In this document: one piece after another, positions 5,527 through 24,685 of the stretch
Numbering within the stretch: position 1 is the stretch's first letter
Layout of the letters: the number at the start of each line of letters is the position of its first letter
DNA from: Chloroflexi bacterium TSY
GTDB lineage: Bacteria; Chloroflexota; Anaerolineae; Caldilineales; Caldilineaceae
Assembly (NCBI GenBank): GCA_019217005.1
Contig: JAHBNG010000160.1
Coordinates: 1 to 29,322 of the forward strand
Direction of reading: 5' to 3'
DNA length: 29,322 bases
Made by a program: the position numbers and the translations under genes
The notes under the pieces: generated by a model
Database searches by the model: none
What the model saw: the letters and a program-made list of their open reading frames with translations, nothing else
Told to the model about the DNA's origin: nothing

Positions 5527-5545
5527 GTCACCTCTCTGAGGTGAC
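5527..5545 (+). terminator. Hairpin directly after the ATPase pseudogene stop
   Basis: GTCACCTC-TCT-GAGGTGAC is a perfect 8-bp stem beginning on the base after the stop codon. It has no T-run behind it, so it may act as a transcript end stabiliser rather than a classical intrinsic terminator. Confidence 0.45.
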
Positions 5546-5669
5546 TAACGTTAAGAACCCTGTATCTTCACGTGAAACCCATCTTTATCCCGCCGCTTGT
5601 CCCGCCGGAGACGGAACCTACGATAAAACGTCACAATTTTGATTATGCTACAAACAGAGAGCAGGAAGC

Positions 5670-7193: not shown

Positions 7194-7307
7194 GGAATAA
7201 TATGAAAACCTTTCTGTTGCCACTATAATCTGATAAGATCCAGAACTCAAGTCGGAGGCCGATTCACACGCAGTAATCTATTTGTAAGGGTTACAGAAGA
7301 GGTAATA

Positions 7308-7685
7308 CTACGCCATCTCATTCTCGTAGATGGCCTGCTCGATTTCTGCTTGATGTGCATCTACATATGCCCAAGCATTTACTAGATCCACAGCCCGCAA
7401 AGTTGGAAAATTTTCAAGGAGTTGTGCTTCATTCCAGCCTAATCGACGATAATTTTCTAAGACCCATACAGGAATACGTGTACGGACAATACGTGCTTCC
7501 CCCCCCACAATTCCAGCGGTTTTTTCGATTCCGGGCCATGTATTGGCAATATCATGAACCAATTTCTGAACTAGATGGGCTTTCTCTGCGCGATTGAGTA
7601 ATGCGAGTTGTGATTCAATTTCTGCGACTGTCATGAGTCGATCTCTCTTTGATTTGTCCGAAACTATCCTATATCGCAAGTTCAT
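7308..7685 (-). CDS. DUF433 family protein (antitoxin-like)
   Basis: The C-terminal two-thirds shows the DUF433 pattern: GGEARIVRTRIPVWVLENYRRLGWNEAQLLENFPTL followed by VDLVNAWAYVDAHQAEIE. DUF433 proteins are small winged-helix-like proteins often found as antitoxins of PIN or DUF5615 toxins, but no toxin gene is visible next to it. The start at 7685 overlaps the hydratase stop by one base (TAATG), suggesting translational coupling. A second ATG at 7634 (MTVAEIESQ) would remove 17 dissimilar residues and is also plausible. A run of eight G on the coding strand lies inside the GIVGGEARI region. Confidence 0.8.
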   Translation of the reverse strand: MNLRYRIVSDKSKRDRLMTVAEIESQLALLNRAEKAHLVQKLVHDIANTWPGIEKTAGIVGGEARIVRTRIPVWVLENYRRLGWNEAQLLENFPTLRAVDLVNAWAYVDAHQAEIEQAIYENEMA

Positions 7686-8569
7686 TATACCACTGCGATC
7701 ATTCCTGACATAGCCAACCCTCCCTCATGGTTTGCGGCCCATGCTTCGCCGCTTTCTTTTCCATTGAGGGTAAAGGGGTTTGGATTGAACAGTGGACTCA
7801 AGCTGCGATACTCAAACGTAGCAATTCTTTTGTTGGTCAACCGCTGGTGGTATAGATCGAGCAGTAACGTCGCCGTCAACGGACCATGCACAACTAAGTC
7901 AGGATATCCTTCATGCTGACGACAGAAATCGACGTCGTAGTGAATGCGGTGGGTGTTGAAAGTCAACGTCGAGTAACGGAAAAGCAGCATTGGATCGGGG
8001 GCGAAGCTGGCCGAAAAAGCTGCATCGGTTGGGGCTGGTTTGGCGGAGATTGGCTGGTTTTGATCAGAGCGAGTCGCCTCTCGATAGACGATGGTTTGCT
8101 CTTCGCACAGGCAACATTTTCCATCTATCATTATCTCACGCTCAACCAGGACAAAGACCAATGGACCACTGCGTCCATGTTTGGGCGTAATCGATTTGAT
8201 GGTCGAGCGTCTGATAGCTTGGTTACCCAATCGCATGGGATGAAGAAACTTCAGACGTCCCCCTGCCCACATGCGTCTTGGCGGTTTAGCCGTTTCCTCT
8301 TGTTCTTCCTCATCCCTAGTAAACGACCCAGTAAACGAAATGGGCGGCATAAATCCGCCTAATTTTTCATGTCCCTCTACGCCTAACGCAGTGCTCAGAA
8401 CTGGTTCATGAAAATAGAGCCAATGCCAAGCTGGCGGCAACTCGTGGCCAACTTGGAAAGTTGGCTTACGATTGAGCGTGGCATTCATCAGATTAGCCGT
8501 TTCGGGGGAGAGAATAGCCGCAGTGATCTGTTCTCTACCAAGCCAAGCGGTCATCTGTTCGGCAGTCAA
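7685..8569 (-). CDS. Hotdog-fold acyl-CoA hydratase (FAS1-like dehydratase / mesaconyl-C4-CoA or itaconyl-CoA hydratase type)
   Basis: The protein of about 290 aa has the double-hotdog layout of the HTD2/Meh group. An N-terminal domain contains LPPAWHWLYFHEPV and GGFMPPISFTGSF. A C-terminal MaoC-like domain contains FNTHRIHYDVDFCRQHEGYPDLVVHGPL, whose H-x-I-H-Y-D segment is the usual hydratase active-site region. Characterised relatives hydrate mesaconyl-C4-CoA in Chloroflexus or itaconyl-CoA in Pseudomonas. A family III CoA-transferase lies upstream on the same strand, which supports a CoA-activation plus hydration pathway for an unsaturated dicarboxylate. The start is either TTG 8569, overlapping the preceding stop as TTGA, or ATG 8554; I cannot decide. 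Its stop overlaps the DUF433 start. Confidence 0.82.
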   Translation of the reverse strand: MTAEQMTAWLGREQITAAILSPETANLMNATLNRKPTFQVGHELPPAWHWLYFHEPVLSTALGVEGHEKLGGFMPPISFTGSFTRDEEEQEETAKPPRRMWAGGRLKFLHPMRLGNQAIRRSTIKSITPKHGRSGPLVFVLVEREIMIDGKCCLCEEQTIVYREATRSDQNQPISAKPAPTDAAFSASFAPDPMLLFRYSTLTFNTHRIHYDVDFCRQHEGYPDLVVHGPLTATLLLDLYHQRLTNKRIATFEYRSLSPLFNPNPFTLNGKESGEAWAANHEGGLAMSGMIAVV

Positions 8570-9326
8570 GAGTTGTCTACCTCTTCGTTCAGATCATCTG
8601 TCGGTAGACGTTGGACAAAAGCATTCAGATTGAATGCTTCGAGTGCATAATTGACGAGGTCGTTTAGCTCTTCTAGGCGGCATGTTTCAAGTTTGTCGGC
8701 AACGAATTTGTACATTGGCTCAAAACGCTGATCTAGAATCTCAAAACGCGAGTCTAAAATCTGTAAGATCGTCCGACGCACAACCGCCTCGCCTTCTTCT
8801 CTCCCTTTCTTCTCGTCTTCATCAATCCCTCTTTTGTATCCAATGTCTTCGCGCTCTTGACGCCACTGATCGGCAAGTGTATGCATGATCTCCTCCGTGT
8901 TTTGATAGACACTCGATATCGTGTTCGTCACTTCACCCTGGCTGACACGGTCCGTTACTGATGATAGATATTTGATCATTGCCAATAAGTGATCCAGGAT
9001 CTGTTCCGTTGGGAGGTTGGCAGGCGGTTCCAGGATCGCCGACAAACGTTCAGCCAGTGCTTCATCATAGATATATTTTAGTAGAAGGATGCTGGCTTGT
9101 AAAGTGTCTGACGAGAGCATTTGGTGCAACTCGGCATCGGGCTGCTCAGCCGTGTTGAAGAGAATATATCGAAATAACTGCCTTCTTTTAGCTGGAGCTC
9201 GTCCAGGTCGAGTTGCACCAGAATCTCTTTCGGCAATACCCCAAGCAGGAAAGCACGTACATCTTCCGGTTTCGTGAAGGAGAAACGAAAGAAACTGTCA
9301 TGCGGGTTATTGATTGATTTGTCCAT
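8566..9326 (-). pseudogene. Rpn-type recombination-promoting nuclease, internally deleted and frameshifted
   Basis: The N-terminal part (ATG 9326: MDKSINNPHDSFFRFSFTKPEDVRAFLLG) is the start of the Rpn/transposase_31 family. The C-terminal part (…SSDTLQASILLLKYIYDEALAERL…) matches the same family's end. Near 9150-9170 the frame changes between them, and the whole PD-(D/E)XK nuclease core that normally follows the first 60 residues is missing, an estimated 130 residues. The remaining C-terminal frame could still be translated from a TTG at 9129. The pseudogene sits between the CoA-transferase and the hydratase, all on one strand, and looks like an insertion into a metabolic operon. Confidence 0.8.
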
Positions 9327-9368: not shown

Positions 9369-10493
9369 CTACTTGGCGAATTCCTGGCGTACTTTGTTGG
9401 TGTGTTCACCCAATTCAGGCACCACACCAAACTCATCACGATCAAACTCTGTGATTATTGGCGACGCCACCATCTGCACCACCTCGTCGTTTACAATCAT
9501 CGGCTGGCGACGCAACTGGGGATGATTCGACAGATCTACCACTGAGTTGACTGCGCCATACGCAATGCCGGTTTCGTTCAGTTTTTTCTCTAGGTCAGTT
9601 CGAGTGTATTGACCAAATATGGAATTGATCACCTTGTCCATCTCAGATCGATTAGCAACGCGAACATTGTTCGTCTCAAACCGTGGATCACCGACCATGT
9701 CAGGTCGTTCCAACAGTTCTGTACAGAAACGGTCCCATTCGCGGTTGTTCTGAATGGCAATCACCACCATCTCCCCTTCTTTGGTCAGATACCCACCATA
9801 AGGGGCCAGCGAAGGATGTTTCATGCCTGCACGTCGGGGTGCCTTGCCGCCGTAATCATGATGCATCAATGGCACAGTCATCCAATCAGCCGCCGTATCA
9901 AAGAGCGAGACCTGCAAGCCCGATCCCTGCCCCGTCCGTTCGCGCAGGAAGAGGGCTTGCACGATCGCACCATAGGCATTCATCCCCGCACCAATATCGC
10001 AGATAGAGACCCCCATCCGTCCATATCCTTCCGGTGCGCCTGAAATCGATACGAGTCCGCTTTCACACTGTACCAGAAAGTCATATGCTTTCATATCCCG
10101 ATAGGGACCATCACCATAGCCAAAGATGTCACAAGTGACCAATTGCGGATACCGGGCGCGCAGCGATTCTGCTCCAAAACCAAGCCGTTCGGTGGCACCA
10201 GGCGCAAGGTTTTGAATAAAAACATCTGCCTTTGTCAAAATTCGATGGAGTAATGAAGCATCCTCCGACTCTTTGAGGTTGAGGACAACCGACTCTTTGC
10301 CTCGATTTGTCCATACAAAGTATGACGCCTCACCATGAACGACGCTATCGTAGCCACGCGCAAAATCGCCTGCAGCACGCTCGATCTTGAGGACACGTGC
10401 GCCTGCGTCCGCCAACCGACAAGAGCAAAGTGGCGCAGCCAACGCTTGCTCAATCGAGACAACCAGAATACCGTCAAGAGGTTTGGTTTGCAT
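9369..10493 (-). CDS. Family III CoA-transferase (CaiB/BaiF)
   Basis: The 374-aa enzyme moves CoA between carboxylic acids through an aspartyl-CoA thioester. The N-terminal GARVLKIERAAGDFARGYD segment and the KAYDFLVQCESG region with Asp138, the expected catalytic residue, are clear, as are NRGKESVVLNLK and LYVNSL-type C-terminal HPQLRRQPMI. The start is placed at ATG 10493 because GGAG lies about 10 bases upstream and the 22 further upstream residues are not family-like; the frame itself opens at 10559. The closest recollection is the itaconate or succinyl-CoA:dicarboxylate group, which fits the hydratase downstream. The exact acid is not certain. Confidence 0.88.
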   Translation of the reverse strand: MQTKPLDGILVVSIEQALAAPLCSCRLADAGARVLKIERAAGDFARGYDSVVHGEASYFVWTNRGKESVVLNLKESEDASLLHRILTKADVFIQNLAPGATERLGFGAESLRARYPQLVTCDIFGYGDGPYRDMKAYDFLVQCESGLVSISGAPEGYGRMGVSICDIGAGMNAYGAIVQALFLRERTGQGSGLQVSLFDTAADWMTVPLMHHDYGGKAPRRAGMKHPSLAPYGGYLTKEGEMVVIAIQNNREWDRFCTELLERPDMVGDPRFETNNVRVANRSEMDKVINSIFGQYTRTDLEKKLNETGIAYGAVNSVVDLSNHPQLRRQPMIVNDEVVQMVASPIITEFDRDEFGVVPELGEHTNKVRQEFAK

Positions 10494-10568
10494 TGGGGTG
10501 ATTCTCCAAAGTGTCTCATACCCAATTTCATGAACATTGGACAAGTTAGGCCGATCCAATATTTAAGC

Positions 10569-10640
10569 GATCCGCAGATGGACAGGATTGACTGGATTTT
10601 CCTCTTTCTAATCCTGTAAATCTTGCCCATCTGTGGATAA
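10569..10640. repeat. Intergenic hairpin repeat (CCGCAGATGGACAGGATT type)
   Basis: GATCCGCAGATGGACAGGATT at 10569-10589, extended to 10598, is mirrored by AATCCTGTAAATCTTGCCCAT and CTGTGGATAA ending at 10640. The arms are about 30 bases with a few mismatches around an 11-base loop. It lies upstream of the CoA-transferase. The design is that of a REP/MITE-like dispersed palindrome, and I recall similar sequences from other environmental genomes, but only one copy is present here. Confidence 0.65.
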
Positions 10641-10723
10641 TTTATTTTAGTATAGGAAAGTATAAAATCAGCCAATAGGTGGAACCAGATTCTGGCTGTT
10701 CACGAAGTGGTCGCTTCGACCTA

Positions 10724-10747
10724 GCTGACGGCTGATTAGCTGAAAGC
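10724..10747. repeat. Short GCTGA-type repeat tract
   Basis: A degenerate copy of the repeat seen at 6-50 and 23843-23882 (AGCTGACGGCTGATTAGCTGA). It lies in the 260-base gap between the CoA-transferase and the transporter, together with the hairpin repeat at 10569. Confidence 0.5.
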
Positions 10748-10820
10748 TTTTTAATTTGAAATCGCCCTAAAACTCATCTCGTCATCTTTTTAGCCCTAGC
10801 CTATCCGATTCAGGCGAAAC

Positions 10821-12194
10821 CTAACCCTTATTGTCACCCGTTCGCCGATTCGCCAACTCTTCCTTGATTGCTCGCAACCGCTCTCCATGTAACGGATAGG
10901 TCAATAAAGCGAGAAAGGCAAGAGCACATCCAGCAAAGGGGAGCCCAGTCATGAAGACACGGAAGCCAGTATTGACTGAGTCCGGCTGGATCTCAATTGT
11001 TGTATCATAACCATATGCAGGAGCAACGAGGCCGAAAACAACTGACACAATTGCCGTGCTCAACGTCACCACCAGCCCGTTGAGGCCAAAATACATTCCT
11101 TCGCGGCGTTGGCCTGTCTTTACTTCATCCTCGTCGATCACATCGGCAATAAGCACGTTGTCCATGAGGAAAATACCGGCAAAAGCGACGCCAATTAATG
11201 CTGCCACAGCAACCGCGCCCTGAAGCGTTTCCACAAACCAAAGCGGGAGCATCGCCAACGCGGTTGCGGCGTAACCCAAGAGCGCAGTGGTGCGTGCCTC
11301 AAAGCGATTGGCAATCACGAGCCGCCACGGGTAGAGCGCCAATGCAGCCACAATGAAAGCTGTCGCAAGAATGATTGACGTCTGGCCTGGATCGGTGCCG
11401 ATGCTATATTTGACATAGAAGATCATGCCTGTGGCGAGTGCATTTGTTGTGACGAAGCGCATGGTTTGGGCAATGGTCATTGGCACAAAGCTGCGGTTGA
11501 CAAAGGTTGTCTTGATGGCCGTGAGGAAGGAAAAATCTTCAGAGACTGACGGTCCACCTCGCTCAAACATGCCCTGATAGCCCACATAAGCTGCCACAAC
11601 AGCGACTCCCGTAAAGATCAACCCCATGACGCCCCAGCCTAACTGCTGAGCTAATATGGGCGGCAGCGCCACACCGAGCAGCAATGCGACCGTCAGGAAG
11701 ATATTCATGCGCACTGCGACATCTGTGCGCTCCCGATAGCTGGGAAACATCTCTGGCATAAGCGAATAGTAGGAGGTACTGACTGCTGTTCCAAAGGCAT
11801 CATAGAGAACAACACCAATGACCATGTAGATGAGGAGAGCGACTGGCTGCTCATTGCCATTAAAGGGCGCCAACCAGAGCAGCGCAAAAATGATCATCCA
11901 GGGTACCGTGCCAAACCAAAGATAGGGAAGCCGTCTCCCCCAACGGGTGTGGGTGCGATCAGATAGGTATCCGATGAGTGGATTATTCACTGCATTGTAG
12001 ATGGCATAGAGGGTCAATGCCGTCGCACTCCATTGCGGCGGAAGTCTCTTGACATCGGTATAAAAGAAGAGGAGCAATACACTGACGACTTGGGCCGGAA
12101 TCTGGATGCCCAGCATGGAGAGGGCATAGAGCCAACGTTGAATGTTTGTAGCGGACTGGTTTGTTGAAGAAAGGGGAATGCTGGTAGTACTCAC
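10821..12194 (-). CDS. GPH/MFS-family sugar:cation symporter
   Basis: This 457-aa membrane protein has about 12 hydrophobic segments and the loop 2-3 signature NNPLIGYLSDRTHTRWGRRLPYL of the glycoside-pentoside-hexuronide (MelB-like) symporters. The motif is repeated weakly before helix 10 (NVLIADVIDEDEVKTGQRREGMYFG), which is also typical. It would import sugars or glycosides with Na+ or H+. The start is a GTG at 12194 with only a weak upstream AGGTG. It stands alone, with the second 80-bp MITE about 115 bases upstream of its start. The substrate is unknown. Confidence 0.9.
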   Translation of the reverse strand: MSTTSIPLSSTNQSATNIQRWLYALSMLGIQIPAQVVSVLLLFFYTDVKRLPPQWSATALTLYAIYNAVNNPLIGYLSDRTHTRWGRRLPYLWFGTVPWMIIFALLWLAPFNGNEQPVALLIYMVIGVVLYDAFGTAVSTSYYSLMPEMFPSYRERTDVAVRMNIFLTVALLLGVALPPILAQQLGWGVMGLIFTGVAVVAAYVGYQGMFERGGPSVSEDFSFLTAIKTTFVNRSFVPMTIAQTMRFVTTNALATGMIFYVKYSIGTDPGQTSIILATAFIVAALALYPWRLVIANRFEARTTALLGYAATALAMLPLWFVETLQGAVAVAALIGVAFAGIFLMDNVLIADVIDEDEVKTGQRREGMYFGLNGLVVTLSTAIVSVVFGLVAPAYGYDTTIEIQPDSVNTGFRVFMTGLPFAGCALAFLALLTYPLHGERLRAIKEELANRRTGDNKG

Positions 12195-12300
12195 GATAGA
12201 TTACTGCACCTGTGGTTGGATTTGGTTGAATTAGGCGATTCCAAAAAAATAACTGACTCATGAGGTATACGTGTTGCGTATTGTGTGATACTGGTCAAGA

Positions 12301-12396
12301 GAATCTTGGATAGTGTGTCCCAAAGTGTGTAAATGAAAACTACACAGTCAAAAAGCTGCTCCATTTACACACTTTGTGGTACACACCCGAATCTTG
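12301..12396. mobile_element. 80-bp MITE copy 2 with 8-bp target duplication
   Basis: The element is 12309-12388, exactly 80 bp like the copy at 3333. The duplication GAATCTTG flanks it at 12301-12308 and 12389-12396. The ends begin GATAGTGTGTCCCAAAGTG and finish CTTTGTGGTACACACCC, nearly matching as inverted repeats over about 26 bases. Orientation is opposite to copy 1. It lies between the transporter start and the next palindromes, so it may alter the transporter's promoter region. Confidence 0.9.
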
Positions 12397-12654
12397 TAGA
12401 GTTGCAAGAGTCCATTTCTCCAATTTGGAGGCCCTATTTTCTTGGAATGGCTCAAGATAGAGTCAGCCGATGCAATGATGGTAATTCTTAACATATAACA
12501 GACTTAGCACCGGCTGATGCTTGATTATACGGTCTATCTTACTGTTCGACAAACAAATCCATTGGTTGCTTGAAGCTGCGCAATCCTGGGTTGTACAACC
12601 AGCTTCGTGCGGCTCAAAGCACGCACCTACGGTATGCCGGATTTAATTTTTAAC

Positions 12655-12751
12655 ATCCATAGGACTTACGCAGAGTCCTCTCGTACGGGCATGATACATC
12701 ATGCCCGTACAAGAGAGGGCACACCATATTGTGCGTAAGTCCTGATCCATA
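12655..12751. mobile_element. 83-bp palindromic MITE with GGACTTACGCA ends
   Basis: GGACTTACGCA (12662) and TGCGTAAGTCC form the ends. Inside, CTCGTACGGGCATGAT and ATCATGCCCGTAC form a second perfect palindrome, so the whole element folds on itself. The 7-bp direct repeat ATCCATA at 12655-12661 and 12745-12751 is a likely target duplication. The GGACTTACGCA terminus is shared by several IS families in other bacteria, as far as I recall. Only one copy is present here. Confidence 0.8.
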
Positions 12752-12845
12752 AACTGTGTTTGGGGCGATATCAACTGTCCACACAGGTGGACGGTTGGCT
12801 TGCTAGCCCTGATCAGCGCCTTCAGTCACTCCTCTACTTAGTGCT

Positions 12846-12916
12846 TATCCGAAAAGTTCTGTGATGAACTATTCCCGCTCGAGAAGTTAGTCAGACTCAC
12901 AACCACTTTTCGGATA
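12846..12916 (-). terminator. Hairpin downstream of the secreted metalloprotease-like gene
   Basis: TATCCGAAAAGT (12846-12857) pairs perfectly with ACTTTTCGGATA (12905-12916), with a partly foldable interior. It lies 30 bases past the stop of the large secreted-protein gene. It could be a terminator or a further small MITE. There is no clear T-tract on the relevant side. Confidence 0.5.
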
Positions 12917-12945
12917 GGATCTTACTCGTACAGAGCGTCAATGCT

Positions 12946-15900
12946 CTATGGCGCTTGCCAAACAATCGCGTAGATCCCATCTTCAACTATACCTTCCACT
13001 GACACCCAATTCAGATTTGAGTCACGGGTCACTGTGGCGGTGAGCCCATCGTCGGTCCAATTGCCATCCAGACCAAAAAGGCGATCAAAGCGCATCATGA
13101 TCAAATTCGCCTCGTCCGCTTCTGTGAGACCGGCTCGTTCGATCGCTTCCTGACTGTAGAACATGGTCAGTTTAACGGGCCCATAATCGGGCTCGGTTCC
13201 ATCGTCTAGAGGGACGCTGCTATCAACTGTCCCTGGCTCGCTGCGTAGCTGGCAGTTTGGTCCGAACAGAATGTCCACATCGAGCGGCATTCCGACCAGT
13301 TTAGTGACATTTCCCCCATTGGGGAATTGCAAAGGCTTAAAGAGAGCCTCATAGTTCGCTGCTGGCATCATCATGACGCGGTTGCAGTTTGGGTCTGGCT
13401 GGTTGACTGTCATGTTTGCAGTGTCGACCATCAACAATCCATCTCGCAGAGGCGCTTCGTGGCAGTGTGCAGGACCAACGCCGCCACCGTCTCGAAACCA
13501 GCGCACAAATCCATCGAATTCTTCTGTCTCGGCGCGCGTGTCTTGGGGATGACGCTCGATGGACAGAAGACCATAAGGAGGCACGGTTCCTCGTGACCAC
13601 AGATTTGGAAAGTCACGAAAATCAAAGATAGCCTTAAATTGCCCATTGTCGTAAGTCATCACCCGATTCCACTCCTCTGGACAACCGATCTCTGTATCGG
13701 GTACACAAATCTGGATGATTGGCGAGAACGCATTTTCGCCATCCACCAATTCGCTATTCTGTTTACCGTTGAGCACTGCCGTCATGGTCACAACATTTCC
13801 ACCAACCAATTGATAGTCCAAATCAAGGCTGGATCCCCACTCATCGCGATCGGGTTCCGTTGTTTCGCTAATGATCCCTGTTTCATCGGAGGTGACATAG
13901 CGAAAACGACCGGCACCAGATAGTGGACCCGATGGCAAGGTGTAGCGATCCACAAAGATACGCAATTGATCATCAGCATCGTGTCCCCAAATCTCTATTT
14001 CTCCCACATGCTTTGTTGTACCAGTTGCATTGACGCCCGTGCCCTGATGTAGAATTCGGTTTGGTGGTTCGGTAGGACGGCCTTGAAGCAAGTACGCTTG
14101 GGTGGCGGTGTTGCCGATCACAGTTGCGCCTTCGGTAATGATGACATCCACTGTCGTGACCATTGCATCTAGAGTTGTTTCGGTGTCCAGATTTGCGCTG
14201 GCGACGACAGAATCAACATCGGCGTCACGGGTGGCACCATTCAGGAGAGGCAAGTAGATCACTCGTTCACTTCCGATTGGATTCAGGGGGGAAGGGTTAG
14301 ATGAGATGGGATTCAATGGGGTTGGGTCATATAAAGCAGCCAATGGTCCCCATGCTGCTAATGGATCATTCATGCTGGCACTCAGAACAGTGGCGGGAGT
14401 GAGCCTAGACGGTGCATAGGGCAATGTGTCTGGGGCTCGTAGTGGCGTCAGTCCTGCAATGCCCTGAATATCAAACCAACGTTCCAGCGTTTCCCAATCA
14501 CTTTCTCCATGGACCAGTCGCTGGGTCGATAGTAGACAGGCACCCAGGGATGACTCTTGATCAGATGGGTGCCACAGCTCGCTCGCTGTGTAATGGAATG
14601 CCATTACCGAGGCTGCCTGCCCGTCGACCCCAAAAGGGTCCTCATCGATGGAACAAAAGCTGACACGCGCGTCGCTGGGATCATACACTGAACAAGTACA
14701 GTATGCTGGGGCTCCGTTGTCACCCTTATGGCCATACTCATCGTAAAGAAAAAGGGCGTAATGCATCCACTCATGTACAATTGTGCGGGCACCTTTTGGG
14801 TCATTCCACTTGCCGACATGTGATTCATTTCCATTCCAGTAACGACCGTAGTAAGTGGCGCCGGGTTCAAAATCCACCTCGATGTCGACTGTACCAATTT
14901 CACTATAGGGAGGGGTTTGTTTCAGGATTGGGCTTGTCAGTGTGTAGGGTAGTGTATCACTGACAATGCCACCTACAAACGCCGCTGGCCGCAGGTCGTT
15001 CGCGACATGAAAGCGCAAATCAGAATCATACCAATGTTGTCCACCTGTATAGATTGTTGGGCGTTTGAAAGCCATGTAACCGTCGGTCAGGTCAGCGAGA
15101 TAGGCAGATGCAATGCGAAAACCCTGCTCAAGCTCAGTCTCGAAACGCTCGTCTGATGGTTCCCACTCCAAGGCCACAACGGGGTTAAAGAGGACCAATG
15201 GCCATTCTCTGCGGATCGCTACCCGTTCATTGCTGGCACAGGTTACCTGACAACTAGAGGTGACATGTTCCGGGGTCCCGCTCCCAGTGCGCCAGCTTGT
15301 GGCATAGACCCAATAAGCGGCTCCATGTTCAAGCCGTCCGGAAGGTTGCTCGTGCTGTTGATGCAGAGCGGCAATTTGAGTGCACTCAGTGGGTAGTGGC
15401 GTCGTGGGGCGACCTGCTCCGTCCGTTGTAATCTGGTGCTTACTGAGAAAACGAGGCGCATCCTCGTTTTTGTAGCATAGAATCTGCACCATCTCGTTGG
15501 ACACAAAGCGACCATCGCCCCAAACAAAGTAGAGCGTTGAAACAGGCAACACTTGAATCAAGACAGTCGCGGTATCAGTGCTCTCGTTGCCATTCTCGAC
15601 CTGAAATTGAAAACTATCCATCCCAACAAAGCTGGGTGGAGGTGTATATGTCACATCGGCGCTTGTATTCTCCCGAGGCACAATGTTGCCCAACGTACCG
15701 GCTGGCTGCGACACAATCGAGAACGTTAACGCGCTGGCAGTTTGATGGCTTCCCGACAGTGTGATTGTCATTGAATTGTCCTGATCGGTCGACACAGTCT
15801 GAGTATGGGCCACAGGCGGTGCCAGAGCGAAGTTCGGCGTGCGCGCTTCTGGCATTGCGAGCGGAGCCGAGTCACTCTCAAGTTGAACGAGTGTGACCCG

Positions 15901-16464
15901 TTCTGGATAAGCCGACGTCAGCCCAACTACATAGCTGCTGTCTCCAGGAGCTTCTCCCTCACCAGGACAGACAGGAGATCCAAACCGAACAGTGATTGTA
16001 TTGCCCGATTGCTCGATTTCATCGATCTCGGTGGTGCCCTCAGCTCCTTCGGTGATGATGTATGCATCATCCAGGGATCCGTCACCATCGTAATCCACTG
16101 GAATGATGGGACCAAATGCAAGGCTGAATCCAAGTAGACAAGATGACTCATCTTCTATTACAGCATTCGCCAGATCGATTCGATATTGATATCCATAGAG
16201 TCCTGCCGCCAAGGTGCCTTCTTCACCCGCATCGCGTGAATGTGAGTGAAAGAAGCCTTCTCCTGTTGCTCCGGGCAGTGCAAAATTGACAACTTGATCA
16301 CTGCCATTCAGTTGACAACCATGATCAAACACACAGTGGATCTCGCTCGAATTCACATCGACAGTCGTTAGTGAATTTGCTTTTACTTCCGAAAATTGAA
16401 CAACAAAAATAGCAATAAATAACAACAGACAAATTGATATTGTACGACAGCGCAAAATTGACAT
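12946..16464 (-). CDS. Secreted multidomain protein with CLCA-like HEWxH...DEY metalloprotease motif
   Basis: The 1172-aa protein begins with a clear signal peptide (hydrophobic core about residues 9-23, cleavage near VKA-NS at 29/30). The start is the ATG at 16464, preceded 7 bases upstream by AAGGAA; an ATG at 16482 is the alternative. Residues about 35-185 look like a choice-of-anchor-type beta domain with DYDGDGSLDDAY. Residues about 215-307 are a cadherin/Big_9-like Ig repeat (VTYTPPPSFVGMDSFQFQVENG). HEWMHYALFLYDEY starts at 564: H564, E565 and H568 plus D575 form a zincin pattern very like the HEWAHLRWGVFDEY of CLCA-family proteases. An IYLPLLNG linker near 735 and further beta-rich repeats follow. 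No sortase or C-terminal anchor motif is evident. Target unknown. Confidence 0.85.
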   Translation of the reverse strand: MSILRCRTISICLLLFIAIFVVQFSEVKANSLTTVDVNSSEIHCVFDHGCQLNGSDQVVNFALPGATGEGFFHSHSRDAGEEGTLAAGLYGYQYRIDLANAVIEDESSCLLGFSLAFGPIIPVDYDGDGSLDDAYIITEGAEGTTEIDEIEQSGNTITVRFGSPVCPGEGEAPGDSSYVVGLTSAYPERVTLVQLESDSAPLAMPEARTPNFALAPPVAHTQTVSTDQDNSMTITLSGSHQTASALTFSIVSQPAGTLGNIVPRENTSADVTYTPPPSFVGMDSFQFQVENGNESTDTATVLIQVLPVSTLYFVWGDGRFVSNEMVQILCYKNEDAPRFLSKHQITTDGAGRPTTPLPTECTQIAALHQQHEQPSGRLEHGAAYWVYATSWRTGSGTPEHVTSSCQVTCASNERVAIRREWPLVLFNPVVALEWEPSDERFETELEQGFRIASAYLADLTDGYMAFKRPTIYTGGQHWYDSDLRFHVANDLRPAAFVGGIVSDTLPYTLTSPILKQTPPYSEIGTVDIEVDFEPGATYYGRYWNGNESHVGKWNDPKGARTIVHEWMHYALFLYDEYGHKGDNGAPAYCTCSVYDPSDARVSFCSIDEDPFGVDGQAASVMAFHYTASELWHPSDQESSLGACLLSTQRLVHGESDWETLERWFDIQGIAGLTPLRAPDTLPYAPSRLTPATVLSASMNDPLAAWGPLAALYDPTPLNPISSNPSPLNPIGSERVIYLPLLNGATRDADVDSVVASANLDTETTLDAMVTTVDVIITEGATVIGNTATQAYLLQGRPTEPPNRILHQGTGVNATGTTKHVGEIEIWGHDADDQLRIFVDRYTLPSGPLSGAGRFRYVTSDETGIISETTEPDRDEWGSSLDLDYQLVGGNVVTMTAVLNGKQNSELVDGENAFSPIIQICVPDTEIGCPEEWNRVMTYDNGQFKAIFDFRDFPNLWSRGTVPPYGLLSIERHPQDTRAETEEFDGFVRWFRDGGGVGPAHCHEAPLRDGLLMVDTANMTVNQPDPNCNRVMMMPAANYEALFKPLQFPNGGNVTKLVGMPLDVDILFGPNCQLRSEPGTVDSSVPLDDGTEPDYGPVKLTMFYSQEAIERAGLTEADEANLIMMRFDRLFGLDGNWTDDGLTATVTRDSNLNWVSVEGIVEDGIYAIVWQAP

Positions 16465-16586
16465 TGTATCGTTCCTTATCATCTAATGAGTATTAGAGCC
16501 ATAGTTATCGTGTTGACAAATTGGTATATACTGAGTAACGCATAAAGGTTCAGGTTCTTCCAGAATCCAGGGGGTGTAACTTCCCG

Positions 16587-16636
16587 GGAAGAGGTCAAAA
16601 ACAGTCTCGTTGACGACCTCATGCCTGACCTCTTCC
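16587..16636. repeat. 11-bp inverted repeat at the IS110 left flank
   Basis: GGAAGAGGTCA (16587-16597) and TGACCTCTTCC (16626-16636) are perfect reverse complements with a 28-base loop. AGGTCAAAAA recurs just before the transposase ATG at about 16884. The feature may be part of the IS110 end or its leader RNA. Confidence 0.5.
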
Positions 16637-16639
16637 TAT

Positions 16640-16890
16640 TAGATAATATAGGAAAGGAGTTAGAATGAGAGAGACAGAAAGAGAGAAGCTGTCACTCGGA
16701 ATCGAACTCCGGCTTGGTAAAAAGGACCGCCCTCTTCCCGCGGTGCGACCGCCCTTCCCGGACCGTCCACCAAGCCGACGCCTAGAACCGTCGCAAGCGT
16801 GTAGCATCTCGAATGCCATAATAGGAAAACGGAAAAGAGCGTCCGAAAAAAATGACCAAAGGCAATCCTCAAGTGAATGAGGAGGTCAAA
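16640..16890 (+). ncRNA. Candidate IS110 bridge RNA region (structured leader)
   Basis: Between the left flank and the transposase ATG lies a GC-rich stretch unlike its AT-rich surroundings. It can fold as CGGCTTGGT (16710-16718) with ACCAAGCCG (16769-16777), continued by GGAC (16724-16727) with GTCC (16765-16768), and capped by GCGGT-GCG-ACCGC (16740-16752). IS110 elements are known to express a bridge RNA from the non-coding end, with internal loops that pair to target and donor DNA. Position, strand and folding fit this, but ends and loops are not proven. The element may be inactive. Confidence 0.45.
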
Positions 16891-16892
16891 AA

Positions 16893-18026
16893 ATGCAGAT
16901 ATTCATAGGAATAGACTGGAGTGAAACAAAACATGATGTAATGATAACGGATGAAAACGGTCGTCGAATTAACTACATGACAATAGAACATAGTGTGGAT
17001 GGCTTTAAGCAACTAGAAAAGTGGCGAGAAACGATGGATATCGGCCATGAAAAATGTCGAATCGGATTAGAGACAGCACATAATCTGATAATTGACTACT
17101 TATGGGATGCTGGGTATACAAATCTATATGTCCTCCCACCGAACGTGGTCAAAGCAAGTCGGGCGAGGTACAATCAGAGCGGTGCTCGCACTGATGAAAG
17201 TGATGCATATACGATAGCTGAACTGGTCAGAACAGATGTTCACCGATTCTATCCTTGGCATCCAGGGAGTGAATTACTCCAGCAAATGCGCATCGTGGTG
17301 AGCATGACCGAGTTTTGGCGCAAAGAAACGGTTGCTGTCTCCAATCGCTTGCGTAGTTGTTTGCTCAGATACCATCCCGCTTTGCTCAATGTCTTTAGTT
17401 GGCCATCGCCCATTGCAGCTCATCTGATTCTGGCTTATCCGTCGCCGCAAGCAGCAGAAAAAGCAACCTATGATGAATTTCAGGTCTTTCTCAAGCAACA
17501 TAAACATAATCAGCCCTCCAAATGGCTCACCTGTTTTGATGCCTTGACCACACAACATCCCCGTTCAGCTCCGGGTGTTGCCCAAGCTTGTCAAGTTCAA
17601 GCCCAGCAACTTGCCCGACTCTTGCTCCATACCCTCAACTCCAAGCAAGCAACACTCCAACAGTTGAACTCTCTTTTTCTGCAACACGAGGATCACCCCA
17701 TTTTTGCTTCCCTGCCGGGCGCAGGAGAGCTCTTGGCTCCCTCTTTGCTGGTCAAATTTGGCGAAGATCGCCGCCGCTTCCCCCATTCCAGCATGGTCCA
17801 GACTTTTGGCTCAAAGTCAACTGGCTCGTCGTTACGCGCTCAGCAATCTCGCTGGCTTCGGCTTACTTTACAAAGCTCGTCAAAGGGCCACTCGGTCAGT
17901 CGCTCTCATCGGGCTTTAGCCAACCGCTGGCTGGCCATTCTTTGGAAAATGTGGCAAGACCGAACCACCTATGACGAATCTTTCCACATTCGTCAACGAA
18001 CTATCCGTCGTCGACCACAAGCTTAG
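16893..18026 (+). pseudogene. IS110-family transposase, damaged C-terminal domain
   Basis: The open frame is 377 codons. The RuvC-like DEDD domain is intact: GIDWSETKHDV (D at about residue 8), GLETAH (E), and GARTDESDAYTIAEL (D..D). The transposase_20 domain begins FASLPGAGELLAPSLLVKFGEDRRRFPHSSMVQTF as expected. After it the usual AG..PVT.SG block with the catalytic Ser is missing, roughly 25 residues. A stretch LASAYFTKLVKG is found in another frame before the frame returns for HSVSRSHRALANRWLAILWKMWQDRTTYDE. So there is an internal deletion plus two frame slips. AGGAGG at about 16880 gives a good ribosome binding site for ATG 16893. It probably cannot catalyse transposition. Confidence 0.78.
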
Positions 18027-18241: not shown

Positions 18242-19349
18242 CTTTTCAACGCGCCTATTTGGTATCTCTCTTACTGACTAAGCGTGTCCGGGAAGTTCGT
18301 GACACTTCTTTGTCAACCTCCTGAGATCCTGAAGAGCCAAGGTTCATTTTTACTCGTGTAACTAATGTTCTGTTGTGCTGCTGCGGAGTATAATAGAGAA
18401 TCTATGTAAACCACATCTGATTGGGAGTAAGATTTGCAAGACAAAATTTATGAAGCGCTAGCTGTTCTCGGGCGGGTGGATATTGAATTGCTTGAACAAT
18501 TTCTGAGCGTTGCGCTTAGTAAGCAGGATGTGCAATTCTTAAGCAGCAGGCCCGACATCATCCAGCACGACAATATTTATGTTCTTCTAGAAACCCAGGC
18601 CGATCATCTCCTGGAGGAGCTCAAAACAGGGGATCTCCAGCGTTTTACCGGACTTCACGAGTCGGGCGTTGCGTTGCTCTCTCAAAGACTCTATGCAGGA
18701 GACCATACGTTTGAATCGGAACTAACGAAGCTCTTCTCACGTCTTGCTGAAACATATTATCTAAACACGCCAGAGCGGTTGGCAGACCTGACCAATCGAT
18801 TGAATGATCTTCCGGCCAAACAATCGGCAACCCGACACAACATTCTCTATTATTCTGCGCTTTCCTTACGCATGGCGAGTGAACATCATGCCTCAATCGC
18901 GGCAATTGATGAATTGCTCGCCGAAGACGAATTGGAACTAAGTGTGCGCGCCCGTGCATTGAACTCGCAGGCAATTTCCTATAGCTTGTTGGGCCAATAT
19001 GCGGAAGCCCGACCAAGATATGATCAAAGTTTTGTGCTCTGGCAGAAGCTCGACAATGCTTACCAACAAAGTGTTATCTTACGGAACATAAGCATCAATG
19101 CGTATGAATTACACTTATATGACGAGGCGGAATCCTACCTGAATCGGTCACTAGCGATCGCTGAACAGATTGGCTCGCTGTCTGGACAGGCAACGACACG
19201 TTTGGAATTAGGGCTGGTACACCGCGATCGCGGAAACTGGAATGCAGCGCTAGATTGTTTCAACTTTCATGTAAGCTATTGGCGTTCGCAACAAGCCTGG
19301 AATAAGGTTGGCAATAGCCTGAACAACATTGGCGAAGTACAATTTTTTT

Positions 19350-20982
19350 TCAGTAGCAGCAAAAGTCGGGTACAAATTTATTATGTTGAGTTAGAAGGGG
19401 AGTCAGAATCATGACGATTTGTATTTGAAAGAAGAGCAGACTCCCAAGCGATTTCAAGTTCAGAAACGACTGAATCAAGGTGATGGCAAAAGCGAAAATA
19501 ATCTTTGCGTTCAGCCAGGATCGAATGTAAACGTTGCCGTTCAAATAAATAAGCGGACCGGTCAACGGATCGCAGCCGGAAGAGCCATAGCGAAGGACGA
19601 AGTTATTAACACTTTTGCGTCCAGTGATACGTCGTTGATTGGTTTTCAAGCGGCCAAAGAAGCCCTCCAGGGCATTGTTAGTGGAAGGAAGACCCGAGAC
19701 ATCGTAGCAGACAAAGAGCCCCCACCAACGGTTGCGAAATGTTGTGTTGATATGCTGAACAATCGAGCGATCTGCGTCATCGAGAGTCGTATCCTGTGTC
19801 AGTGCGACTAAATATTGATCAACAGCTGATGCAACGGAATGAGCAGTGACCTGTACCTGGTCGTCGGCTTGAGAGTCAGGCGACAAAAGCCGTTGGAGTG
19901 CCACCAACCACCCAAGTTGCCGTCGTAAGCGGTTGGCTTGAACAGTGCAAAAACGATGAAAACCAGCAATCTTGATTAAGCGGGTCAGTAACGGATGCCC
20001 CCTTTTTCCTGAGCCCGTAATAATGATGCTTCAATCGTGATTAATTGTTGAACCATCTGTAAGCCACCTAATTCAAAGGAGCCAATCCTCTTGTCAATAA
20101 AGTGAACCGCAGATAGCGAGTATATTGCAAAAGAACTGCTTTGTAGGGATCGGTTTCCGCCAATTCTCGAACCGTTTTGTAGACCCGATTCAAAAAGCCA
20201 CGCAGCTTCTTTTTGAGTTGAGTTTTCATTGTACGGTCAAGCGCATAAGTGAGTCGCCCAGCTTCTTTAATGCAATGGAACTGACAAGTCTGATGGGGGC
20301 AATTCGGCCACACTTGAGCAACAGCAAGTTGGATGTTTTCCTGGGCGTCACTGATGATGCCCTTGATAGGATTTCCCATTCGTTTATCGGTTCCAACAGT
20401 GCTGAAACCAGAGTCTTGTGAGTCCCTGATTCCAACACTTCTGCCATCAAAGTGATGTCTAACTGGACTTCTCGAACCACATAGAGCGCTGGACTTCCTT
20501 TCTCTGGTTGCATCCCATCTATGGAGAGGATTAGTCCGCCCAACCTTTTCCATTTTTCTGCTGGTTTACTACCTTCGCTGGCTGTCCAGCTCGCAACAAG
20601 GCTAAAAATGTACCGATTAAGTTCAGCACTTGTCTTTCAGATATCGTTATCCGCTCTTTTAGTCCTTTATGGATTTCGGCCACTCTTCGTTGATGCCAAA
20701 ATCGTTGGTATCCTATTTCGACGATTACATCTAACCCATAACCGCATTCGGGTACACCAACTCTTCTGCTTCTTGGGAACGATAGACCACTTCTTGCTGC
20801 AAGCAGTTCTCATTTTGACACCGATATCCATGACTTACCACATAATATCTGCCCTCCAGTGTTTCCAGATACTTATGCCATAATTTATAGCTTCTTTTCA
20901 GTTTGCTTTTGCAGTTCGGACAGCGCTTCTTTGTTGGTCGGTAGTATCGTTTCTCTACCTGCTTCTCCTTCTTTTTGCGCAT
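19350..20982 (-). pseudogene. DDE-type transposase of the 1756-bp IS, multiply frameshifted
   Basis: ATG 20982 follows AAGGAGG. The parts in order are: a zinc-ribbon head (CPNCKSKLKR…YRCQNENC); a helix-turn-helix stretch (LDVIVEIGYQRFWHQRRVAEIHKGLKE, ITISERQVLNLIG); a first Asp in LILSIDGMQPEKG; a second in GIISDAQENIQLAV with CQFHCIKEAG; and a Glu in NNALEGFFGRLKTNQRRITGRKSVNNF. These pieces lie in different frames. Five breaks can each be closed by adding one base to a homopolymer, near 20735-20737, 20546-20549, 20369-20370, 20129-20132 and 19998-20002 (plus-strand positions). The corrected protein would be a full-length transposase. The true C-terminus is unclear because the last frame runs into the left TIR. 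Confidence 0.8.
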
Positions 20983-21106
20983 TTTTCCGGACCTCCTTGG
21001 CCTCTCCTATTCTAGCCTTTTCTTCCGGAGGTCTTCAATTTATCTCTTTTTGGTCGCAATCATTTACTTGTCATAATATTTCTGTACCCGACTTTTGCTG
21101 TAACTG
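19351..21106 (-). mobile_element. 1756-bp insertion sequence with CAGTAGCAGCAAAAGTCGGG ends
   Basis: Left end CAGTAGCAGCAAAAGTCGGG (19351) and right end CCCGACTTTTGCTGTAACTG (to 21106) are inverted repeats of about 24 bp with few mismatches. The target was a T-run: eight T precede and seven T follow. Removing the element plus the seven-T duplication restores the TPR-CHAT frame exactly (…EVQFFLGQFDEAEDAF). It encodes one transposase on the minus strand. The MITEs at 4226 and 18046 share its ends. The family is not one I can name with confidence. Confidence 0.92.
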
Positions 21107-22818
21107 TTTTTTTAGGTCAGTTTGACGAAGCCGAAGATGCCTTCCGCCAAGCATTGGCGCACATGACAACGAGCGCCTATCGCGTTGATGTTCATTTGAA
21201 TCTGGGCATGATCTATCTTGTGAAGGAGAACCTGACACAGGCGCTCGATTTCTTCACACAGGCGCATGAGCTAGCCATTGAAATCGAGCGGCGCGACATT
21301 TTGCCCGGTATTCACTATCGTCTGGGCGAGCTGATGAGGAACCAAGGTGACCTGCCGGCTGCACAAAGACACATTGAGACGAGTATTCAACTAGTGGAGG
21401 ATTTGCGCAATCCTCTGCATGATGAGGGTATGAAGATCGGCCTCTTGGGGCGCTGGCAGCAGCTCTATGAATCGATGCTCTTGCTCTATCTGGAACAGGA
21501 TGATCTACACGCCGCACTCCATATTGCGGAGCGCTCCCGTTCTCGCGCTTTTCTTGACATGGTCGCTTCATCGCCTTCACTCACAGATAACAAGTCGTCC
21601 GATGAGGGACTCGATGAGCCACTAACCGCACGTGAAATACAAGAGCGTCTCCCCGCAGACGCAGCACTAATTGAATTTTTTGCTACTGGACAACCCGGAA
21701 CCAGCGAAGGGATTGTTGCCAATCTACCGTCTGAAAGTCAGAGACTGCGTAAGTACTTGCTATCACCGGAGCATCTCTTTGCTTTTATCGTCACTCGCGA
21801 GTCAGTGCAAGTGCTCGAATTGGATATCAGTATTGAGCAGATCCAGTCCCAACTTTTTCATCATGGTGATGGTCGTCTGCGCGGCATTACGCCTTTGCCT
21901 GGCAAGCGGTTACGGGTGATGCGCCGTTGGCAAGATGTTGGCGCCAAGCTCTTACAGCCATTGCGAAGTTTTGTGACCGGCAGGCGCCATCTTTTTTTTG
22001 TTCCTCACAGCTTGTTACATTATCTTCCCTTCCATGCACTTATCGATCTATCGACCATGACGGGTATCCGAGATACGACCTTTAGCTATGCGCCAAGTGC
22101 CTCTCTCTTGTTAAGGTCCACCTATCCTAACAATAAAAGCGCACAGAGGCCCCGACTTCTTTCACTTGGTGGATTGGATCATGCGGAAGCAGAAGCAAAT
22201 TGGATTGCTCAATGCTTTGGCGGTGAGATTCTCCTGGGAGATGAAGCGACCATGGTACGCGTTTGTGATGCACTTCCTTTCTACGATGTTGTACATTTTT
22301 CTTGTCACGGTCACTTTCGCCAACGCACACCCTTGGAATCGGCCCTTGAACTCTCTGATGGTGAACTCACGGCTGCGAATCTGCTGGAGTCGGTTCAGCT
22401 CAATGCGGATCTCGTGACCCTTAGCGCGTGTGATACTGGGCTGAATGTTCTGCATCCTGGTGATGAATTGATGGGATTGACTCGGGCAATTCTAGGTTGT
22501 GGTGCGCGATCTTTGCTGGCGACTCTTTGGCCAGTACACGAGATTCCAACTCGACTCTTTATAGAACACTTTTACGAAATGTGGATGGCTGGCGCAACCA
22601 AGGCTCGGGCAGTGCAAGAAACACAGCGATTTGTGGCAAACATTGATATCAATCAATTGCATGCCAGATTTGAGCAGTATGGCATGGCACCCGAAGTGGT
22701 GTTGGATAGACTTAGACTTTTTCAGGCCATGCTACCGGACCAAAAGCCCTTTGATCATCCCTACTATTGGGGTGGATTCATCTTAATTGGCGCGCCAGAT
22801 TGAGTGAATAAGAGAAAA

Positions 22819-23685
22819 TTACGCAGGTAGTTGAATATGGATTCCCAATTTAGGGAGTCGTTCAAGTGGAATGGCGTCGAATTCCGCAATGCCTCTATGA
22901 TCGGTTATTTGAATCACTTCAGTATCTCCATCATAGAGGACCACCGGAATTCCTACTAGATCTGCATCTGGTGTCTCTAAGAGATAGAGTGATACTTCGA
23001 CCTGACAAAGCGATGCATCATCCACATCTGCAAAGACAGTACTTTCGATCTCCCATCCCTCCAATTCTTCCTCACCCAATGTAATCTGCGCCAATAGCCT
23101 CTCTGATTGGCTTGATTTGACAGTCCAACCAGCTGCCGACTGAGCCTGTATCCCTGGACCAAAAATAAGCGTAATTCCGCCCAAGGCATCCTGGATCCAT
23201 TCCCGACCTGTCTCAAGTGCTTGTTGAACCATGTGCTTTTGAGCAGAGCCGTCGTTGGTTATCGGAGTCGAAGCGGTCGAGCTTGTCAAAAAAGTGAGGT
23301 CAAAATTAGGATAGGAGTCGACCATCGGAACTGCATCGGCCAAGCTTTGTTGGACCATCTCTGACACTTCAGCATAGGCCGCCATACAATGAGGACAGAG
23401 CATCAGATGAGTCCGAACATCTGCCAGCGGTTCAGGCTCGAGCGCTGACATACGTCCCTCTAGTTGAGCCTGAATCAACTCAGGCAGCATCTCTTGACTG
23501 ATATCGCAATCGAGTGGATCGTCAATATTACCCTTCAGGGCAGAGACCAATTGACGCATTTGCGCGCTGTCATAGATCTTCTCGGCCAGCGCACGTGCGA
23601 CTTCTCTCGCTTGGTCTACATTGACCATGTCAGCCTGGAGTTCATCGACCCAGCGTTTGATCAGATTCTGGTGTTGATTCTTCAT
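22819..23685 (-). CDS. Anti-sigma-factor-like zinc-finger protein with C-terminal beta domain
   Basis: The 288-aa cytoplasmic protein has no membrane segment. An N-terminal helical part is followed by HLMLCPHCMAAYAEV (about residue 92), an H-x3-C-x2-C motif as in zinc-binding anti-sigma domains. A linker (about 115-165) leads to a beta-rich domain at about 205-288 (VEVSLYLLE...IPVVLYDGDTEVIQITDHRGIAEFDAIPLERLPKLGIHIQ) resembling carboxypeptidase-regulatory/transthyretin-like folds. It lies 214 bases downstream of the sigma-factor gene on the same strand and points toward the CHAT protease gene. Function as an anti-sigma factor or a protease substrate is inferred from the motif and context, not demonstrated. 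No clear ribosome binding site precedes ATG 23685. Confidence 0.7.
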   Translation of the reverse strand: MKNQHQNLIKRWVDELQADMVNVDQAREVARALAEKIYDSAQMRQLVSALKGNIDDPLDCDISQEMLPELIQAQLEGRMSALEPEPLADVRTHLMLCPHCMAAYAEVSEMVQQSLADAVPMVDSYPNFDLTFLTSSTASTPITNDGSAQKHMVQQALETGREWIQDALGGITLIFGPGIQAQSAAGWTVKSSQSERLLAQITLGEEELEGWEIESTVFADVDDASLCQVEVSLYLLETPDADLVGIPVVLYDGDTEVIQITDHRGIAEFDAIPLERLPKLGIHIQLPA

Positions 23686-23842
23686 GATAGTTGGATTCGC
23701 TGCCTAGACTGAGCTTTGCATGAAAATATGATTCCGCTTTGGGCGATTCCATAGAATAAAGGCCATTACAGTATAACCGTACCATTGCAACGCGGGAGGA
23801 TGCTACTTTACAATGCGCAGTCAACTCCCAAACTCTTGCATA

Positions 23843-23882
23843 TGGCTGATAGCTGATAGCCGATGGCTGATAGCTGATGGCT
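23843..23882. repeat. GCTGATAGCTGA repeat tract
   Basis: Near-perfect copies of GGCTGATAGCTGAT fill the end of the 214-base gap between the sigma-factor gene and the zinc-finger gene. It is the same repeat type as at 6-50. Located directly after the sigma-factor stop, it may affect the coupling of the two genes. Confidence 0.6.
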
Positions 23883-23899
23883 ACTCTATCCCGTCACAC

Positions 23900-24685
23900 T
23901 CAGGACAGTCCACTCCATAATTCACTCAAGACCGGATCATTTCCTAATCGTTTTCGACCACGATTGCGTAGAATATGAACATTCCCAACAGAGATTCCCA
24001 ATTCTCTGGCAATCTCCTTATCACTCCAATCGTACAAATATTTTAAGATGACGGCTAAAAACTGATTCTTGGCGCGTGGATTTTGCGCAATCAGTTCGGC
24101 GATCCGCTCGAGAACGGCTTCGGCCTTCTCGACATCGATTACTGTTTCCACAAGAGGCAATCGAGTCGAATCCACAAATTGGTTTGTCCCATCACCTGCT
24201 CGATCAATTGCCTGGTCTTCAGACAATGTTTCAGTTCGTAGCCGTTCTCGATCCCGCTTCCGAAAATAGTCTGTCGCGGCCTGTCGGACTTTGAACATGG
24301 TAAATGTCAAAAAGGCACCAGGATTTTTGCAGGTGTGAAGTAAGCGGAAGACTCGAAAAAGAGCCTCCTGTACGAATTCTGTGGCAAGCTCAGCATCCTT
24401 GTACTGATAGAGTGCCCGATCATATAAATATCGGGAAAGTTCAGCAAACGCTCGCTCCTGGCGCTCACCTTCACTTGCACAGGCTTCGTACCATTCGATG
24501 CAATATAGATTGATTGCTTGTGTGGTTAGAACACCTTCATGATGCTCTCCACCAGTTGCTATGACACGCTGATGCAATCGTAGGGCAAATTCTTTGGTTG
24601 GGAGTAGCTGCCATTGATGGCGCTTAACGAGATGGGCGACTACTTCTTGGCATTGAGTGCATTGGTCAGTCATCAGGATTGCCAT
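23900..24685 (-). CDS. ECF-like sigma-70 family RNA polymerase sigma factor
   Basis: The 261-aa protein carries an N-terminal extension of about 80 residues with CTQCQEVVAHL. Sigma region 2 lies at about 85-145 (ELSRYLYDRALYQYKDAELATEFVQEALFRVFRLL…VRQAATDYFRKRD), and region 4 with a helix-turn-helix at about 205-250 (ILKYLYDWSDKEIARELGISVGNVHILRNRGRKRL). Lack of region 3 makes it ECF-like. It would redirect RNA polymerase to a small regulon in response to a signal. A TATAAT overlaps the first ATG on the minus strand (24684-24689), so the second ATG at 24673 (MTDQCTQ) may be the true, nearly leaderless start. The zinc-finger protein downstream is its likely regulator. Confidence 0.85.
   Translation of the reverse strand: MAILMTDQCTQCQEVVAHLVKRHQWQLLPTKEFALRLHQRVIATGGEHHEGVLTTQAINLYCIEWYEACASEGERQERAFAELSRYLYDRALYQYKDAELATEFVQEALFRVFRLLHTCKNPGAFLTFTMFKVRQAATDYFRKRDRERLRTETLSEDQAIDRAGDGTNQFVDSTRLPLVETVIDVEKAEAVLERIAELIAQNPRAKNQFLAVILKYLYDWSDKEIARELGISVGNVHILRNRGRKRLGNDPVLSELWSGLS

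Follow-up and report, generated by a model that had tools for sequence, protein, structure and literature searches.

Can a caspase-like TPR-CHAT protease switch on a sigma factor where no CRISPR system directs it? This question is raised by a locus of Chloroflexi bacterium TSY (Chloroflexota, Caldilineaceae), located in contig JAHBNG010000160.1 of assembly GCA_019217005.1, whose positions 1 to 29,322 are the stretch analysed here and called the window. Within it, genes for an extracytoplasmic function (ECF)-type sigma factor, for a zinc-finger protein of ZAS type, putatively a soluble anti-sigma factor, and for a TPR-CHAT protease lie together, and their linkage is kept beyond the window. In type III-E CRISPR systems the TPR-CHAT protease Csx29 has the sigma inhibitor Csx30 as its cleavage substrate (PMC10028731, accessible part), and an earlier note, made from the letters of this DNA alone, had transferred that scheme to the present trio as a self-contained switch working without CRISPR. 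The trio has, as far as tested, no CRISPR genes beside it and is probably a protease-controlled sigma system of known kind in a new form.

The sigma gene (23900..24685, minus strand) encodes 261 amino acids, with sigma2 at about residues 74-151 and sigma4 at about residues 185-258. Both domains, Sigma70_r2 (PF04542) and r4_2 (PF08281) of Pfam, score above their cut-offs, which places the protein among the ECF sigma factors as the earlier note had read it; TIGR02937 likewise reaches 54.8 bits vs a cut-off of 42.9, the structural model has a mean predicted local distance difference test (pLDDT) of 79.7, and the Foldseek list is headed by ECF sigma factors (probability 1.00, best E 4.4e-3). The adjoining zinc-finger gene (22819..23685, minus strand) encodes 288 amino acids. 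Its ZAS signature H93-x3-C97-x2-C100 (23386..23409, minus strand), already noticed together with a beta domain from the letters, is invariant, as H93, C97 and C100 are, like P126 and G265, unchanged across all 12 rows of the family alignment (A3). The AlphaFold2 model built with 7 sequences (mean pLDDT 64.7) is helical in the N-terminal part, and signature, modelled helices and adjoining sigma gene together identify the protein as ZAS-like; curated NCBIfam anti-sigma models match it weakly and below threshold (best E 0.0013; NF052368 18.5 vs 50). The C-terminal domain, residues about 195-284 (22834..23103, minus strand), is modelled as a beta sandwich with a block pLDDT mostly of about 78-90. 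Its fold matches to MATH/TRAF, many structures of which have been solved peptide-bound, and to MG1 are middling, and CarboxypepD_reg, SdrD_B and MG3 are matched once each among 12 relatives. The maximum 19-residue hydropathy of the window protein is 1.13, without a segment resembling a transmembrane helix, and the highest mean in the family proteins examined is 1.95; since none reaches 2, the zinc-finger proteins look soluble. Many relatives (e.g. L044, L106, L122) carry a tandem pair of H-x3-C-x2-C motifs, the window protein one.

The TPR-CHAT gene faces the zinc-finger gene, as had been claimed, the two open reading frames (ORFs) being convergent with 15 bp between their ends. It had been read as a single gene with a His704/Cys745 dyad; that numbering came from a joined reading which no single frame encodes, as the span 18434-22803 of the plus strand consists of two ORFs with an insert between them. 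The 5' piece (18434..19414, plus strand; 326 amino acids) carries TPRs (TPR_12, E 3.4e-16) and matches the N-terminal part of intact relatives, its final residues coming from insert sequence. In the 3' piece (21154..22803, plus strand; 549 amino acids) the last TPRs precede the CHAT protease domain PF12770, which scores 184.8 bits vs a cut-off of 24. The catalytic His codon (22306..22308, plus strand) specifies residue 385 and the catalytic Cys codon (22429..22431, plus strand) residue 426 of this piece, both in conserved alignment columns and at a spacing of 41, identical to the one first read. With the domain above cut-off and the His385/Cys426 dyad in place the window thus codes for a CHAT protease, yet the gene is interrupted. 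The insert, like an insertion sequence (IS) and spanning about 19351..21106, ends in 35-nt inverted repeats (19351-19385 and 21072-21106; 86% complementary), and its minus-strand transposase ORFs are broken and match DDE_Tnp_ISL3 and MULE weakly (Pfam). T runs flank it. Since the insert splits the TPR-CHAT gene into two ORFs, the window copy is without an intact protease gene, and the notion of a self-contained switch fails for this copy; intact TPR-CHAT relatives are found in other genomes. In PADLOC the CHAT pieces matched TPR and BovA weakly, the sigma factor had one weak match, and the zinc-finger protein had none.

The earlier note had named the lack of a conserved neighbourhood of the three families as one finding that would refute its proposal, but such a neighbourhood exists: many loci of Chloroflexota carry the trio, and its genes are arranged in several ways. 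Protein searches returned, queries themselves included, 3 zinc-finger and 9 sigma relatives, and a 12-row profile search found 6 relatives among the best 7997 word-sharing candidates scored; plasmids searched by tblastn with protein P0013 gave no match. A sigma-family scan of genome contigs yielded one locus in a Chloroflexales metagenome-assembled genome (L001), where a sigma gene adjoins a zinc-finger gene, and the zinc-finger searches were run over genomes of its phylum, the Chloroflexota. A 3-row zinc-finger alignment matched 28 of 301 genomes at E 0.01 and, within one class, 7 of 158 at E 1e-7; the 12-row alignment matched 166 of 400 at E 1e-4, many over the ZAS part only. Regions were fetched around 20 places of the 3-row search (weak ones included), 36 of the 12-row search and 5 new ones of the one-class search, and genome G111 supplied 10 more, around its other CHATs. 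With full length set at >=70% of the A3 model and the window excluded, this gave 50 proteins at 49 loci, including one reached via a CHAT search (L122) and L001 from the sigma scan.

Of these 50 full-length relatives, 45 have a sigma gene at a distance of at most 500 bp and 35 a CHAT gene at a distance of at most 4 kb, both partners being present for 31. For loci with at least 4.5 kb on each side the counts are 31 of 32 for sigma and 24 of 32 for CHAT, and clustering at 60% identity leaves 34 clusters, 22 of them with CHAT (13 of the 19 that have a well-flanked member). The CHAT gene is convergent in 12 cases, downstream in 11, upstream in 6 and divergent in 6; gene order is shuffled while the partners persist. 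The convergent order of the window, with the CHAT gene close to the zinc finger, is found again at L033, L142, L145 and L146 and in the six-member L045 cluster (L045, L050, L099-L102), at a zinc-finger identity to the window of 25% for L033 and 24% for L045 (A3) and of 25-32% for L142, L145 and L146 (BLAST). Five proteins of 249-293 amino acids that cover <45% of the model have a CHAT gene at L094 and L096 and none at L037, L041 and L052.

Of the 33 CHATs aligned, counting that of the window, 31 retain the catalytic His and Cys, the exceptions being a multidomain protein misregistered in the alignment (L034) and a CHAT on a truncated contig (L092). Genome G111 (assembly of 6,346,587 + 339,639 + 99,204 bases) has 14 CHAT matches, and four TPR-CHATs among them adjoin a sigma/zinc-finger pair (L099, L113, L087, L122), a fifth CHAT (2443863) lying near one of these four trios. 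Of the 35 PF08281 matches that exceed the cut-off in this genome, comparison by eye puts only one within 5 kb of a CHAT, namely the sigma of a trio; the sigmas of the other three trios are not among the 35. At L087, another CHAT match and another sigma gene lie beyond the trio (9815-17874). Among 18 representatives (30 before removal of near-duplicates; L034 left out, L033 and L092 without a sigma entry), sequence distances are correlated between zinc finger and CHAT (r 0.66), zinc finger and sigma (0.85) and sigma and CHAT (0.61), with 0 of 5000 permutations reaching each value.

That the trio works without CRISPR, as had been supposed, holds for its immediate surroundings: in 20 genomes compared, the RAMP genes among the matches listed are all more than 20 kb from any trio, some contigs being short and the comparison covering genes rather than arrays, and the closest of those listed is about 21 kb away (G282:C5). 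The family scan of the window, which covered 20 of its 73 listed ORFs, gave no RAMP match. Cas7-11 (gRAMP) beside the protease, a mark of type III-E, was not encountered as far as compared. RAMP genes (PF03787) as such are present in 19 of the 20 trio genomes, none listed within 20 kb, and type III systems may therefore still control the trios in trans.

Among known systems the closest is the type III-E CASP/Craspase, in which a TPR-CHAT protease (Csx29), a sigma-binding inhibitor (Csx30) and an ECF sigma factor (CASP-sigma/RpoE) occur together (accessible parts of PMC10028731 and PMC9729208). The window CHAT resembles Csx29, with 57.3 bits to NF041237 and best PDB CHAT chains at E about 3e-10, but the score, obtained on the 3' piece only, stays far below the cut-off of 300 that would make it a Csx29. 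The putative inhibitor differs as well, combining a ZAS zinc finger with a beta sandwich; no Csx30-named NCBIfam match appeared up to E 1, presence of a Csx30 model being unchecked, and the fold lists leave room for Csx30. In CalpL-CalpT-CalpS of type III CRISPR systems the protease is of Lon type with a SAVED sensor of cA4, whereas the trio has TPR-CHAT and no SAVED-Lon combination was found in it. ECF54 (Geodermatophilus example) shares CHAT-domain proteins in conserved context, for which proteolytic control has been proposed, but is described in the accessible part of PMC8999054 without an anti-sigma factor, whereas the sigma factor here is constantly paired with a ZAS protein. ECF270 and ECF271, the latter with a Chloroflexi example, join an ECF sigma factor to a soluble ZAS-type regulator as the trio does, but the same part of that source (PMC8999054) does not mention CHAT in connection with them. 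No description of a sigma/ZAS/TPR-CHAT trio was found in the literature searched, coverage of which was partial, and an earlier mention may exist.

From the computed gene identities and linkage, the dyads of the relatives, the low-confidence linker and the interruption of the window CHAT we infer an anti-sigma function, a substrate, a cut site, release and a trigger, and favour, with modest confidence, a CRISPR-independent three-gene module in which the CHAT protease probably cleaves the anti-sigma-like zinc-finger protein and thereby frees the sigma factor. The soluble ZAS protein would keep the ECF sigma factor inactive until a cue is sensed by the TPR region of the TPR-CHAT protein or by a partner of that region; the cued protease would then sever the zinc-finger protein, the likeliest site being the linker between ZAS part and beta sandwich, and the cut would start release of the sigma factor, perhaps after further degradation, and with it a new transcription programme. 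In loci whose CHAT gene forms a single run with the other two genes, the CHAT gene may belong to the regulon of the sigma factor as well. The candidate cleavage region spans residues 113-146 (23248..23349, minus strand), with pLDDT under 50 at residues 113-131 and 133-146, and overlaps the stretch 115-165 guessed at before any model was available. This mechanism is deemed the most likely because the dyad is kept in nearly all aligned CHATs and because precedents exist in Csx29/Csx30 and in the Calp system, the study of which provides a further example of protease-to-sigma signalling (PMC11417357, accessible part). Substrates of CHAT proteases are also commonly encoded nearby (PMC9729208, accessible part).

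Within the linker lies the motif YPNFDLTFL, residues 125-133 (23287..23313, minus strand), with P126 unchanged in all 12 rows and P-x-x-D-L-x-F-L-like forms in several other family members. It was considered as cut site and rejected, as related LPPxPL forms also occur in CHAT-less loci.

A number of observations weigh against the proposed module. Among the 32 well-flanked zinc-finger loci 8 have no CHAT gene within 4 kb, and the sigma/zinc-finger pair therefore occurs without CHAT as well; counterparts of the linker motif are present at loci of this kind. Some of the CHAT partners counted are weak cases, namely a different multidomain protein at L034, a fragment at L116 and a gene 2.7 kb away at L143. 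The sample leans to CHAT-linked forms because A3 itself has 9 locus rows, 6 of which had already been known to be near CHAT, and the 36 places of the 12-row search were picked by eye among the matches listed, for strength or long coverage. The anti-sigma assignment is burdened by Pfam zf-HC2, which gives 16.1 bits on the window protein, below its cut-off of 22.2, and E 0.05 or better in only 4 of 12 A3 members. In G111, no sigma/zinc-finger pair accompanies the nine other CHATs within the DNA fetched, and a below-cut-off sigma match (2446163) near two CHATs has no listed zinc finger of its own. Co-divergence, finally, can arise from shared genome descent.

The main rival reverses the direction of the signal: the ZAS protein would itself be the sensor, e.g. 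of redox state as with ChrR or RshA; the sigma factor would then transcribe CHAT as an output protease with another target. Soluble ZAS anti-sigma factors normally respond to oxidative stress (PMC8999054, accessible part), co-transcription of CHAT with sigma is possible in the co-directional loci (CHAT downstream in 11, upstream in 6), and the sigma/zinc-finger pairs without nearby CHAT would suit a sensor of this kind; against it, the site CAACGNAAC-N11-GCGTA, conserved upstream of sigma in six related convergent loci, is by eye missing from the region upstream of their CHAT genes, and ZAS proteins of <=121 amino acids adjoining a sigma gene, which are without the beta domain, have CHAT beside them in 0 of 6 cases (fetched DNA, some flanks short), which suggests that the connection runs through the linker/beta part. 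We regard this reversal as rather unlikely by itself, and combined with cleavage of the zinc-finger protein by CHAT it may form a feedback loop.

The beta domain could also act without being severed from the ZAS part, if CHAT bound to it and were restrained, the zinc-finger protein serving as a shared inhibitor or adaptor, and release came about by binding or conformational change, with no cleavage. In pull-downs, uncleavable Csx30 recovered Cas7-11-Csx29 whether target RNA was present or not (PMC10028731, accessible part), and the middling resemblance of the beta domain to MATH/TRAF folds, many of them solved with bound peptides, is in line with such a role; yet the explanation appears improbable to us. 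The mobile elements of the window, the IS-like insert in CHAT and a transposase ORF of IS110 type that precedes the TPR-CHAT gene (16893-18026; Pfam), speak for a further reading, in which the three genes are chance neighbours or were gathered by general clustering of mobile or defence genes, with no functional link. Recurrence in four arrangements, CHAT in 22 of 34 clusters and four trios in a single genome with 14 CHATs argue the other way, and chance is strongly disfavoured. CHAT-less sigma/zinc-finger pairs may have other partners.

Three loci of that type with no nearby CHAT (L083, L084, L117) share, by eye, a common small neighbour protein of 242-260 amino acids, which at L084 (2966-8696; one flank cut) is followed by a 1501-amino-acid FtsK/SpoIIIE protein with a NACHT-like part. 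At L034, the ORF adjoining sigma and zinc finger (3992-8875; 1627 amino acids) has a CHAT-like N-terminal part and, by eye, cyclase/ATPase- and binding-protein-like regions.

The sigma factor of the window carries an N-terminal helical extension ahead of sigma2, residues about 10-69 (24479..24658, minus strand), modelled as three helices with a block pLDDT of 84-95 and with several invariant positions in a 10-row alignment; the six related convergent trios carry a shorter sigma factor of 201 amino acids. A relaxed pattern of the site upstream of their sigma genes was commoner than its reversed control in 0 of 4 genomes searched genome-wide, and a looser form occurs once in the window, as expected by chance (mean 1.02); sigma autoregulation through this site is not claimed. 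Elsewhere in the window, two short ORFs at 3926-4784, of which the first resembles TniB weakly and below cut-off, are a possible transposon remnant, and a 1178-amino-acid ORF (12946-16482) carries a bacterial Ig/cadherin-like domain (Pfam).

Within the literature searched, sigma release by a TPR-CHAT protease has been shown so far only under CRISPR control. If the proposed mechanism is true, a conserved CRISPR-free version would offer a direct way to ask about the origin of the output branch of Craspase, as well as access to the cues read by TPR-CHAT proteases and to the programmes of their sigma factors. A wider and more tentative view, which we find possible though doubtful, is that the trios represent general CRISPR-free protease-to-sigma signalling in which one genome has several orthogonal copies that respond, through their TPRs, to separate cues, that type III-E later put such a TPR-CHAT protease under RNA control, and that the window preserves a switch losing its protease to an insertion. 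The several trio copies per genome are a natural set for studying pairing specificity.

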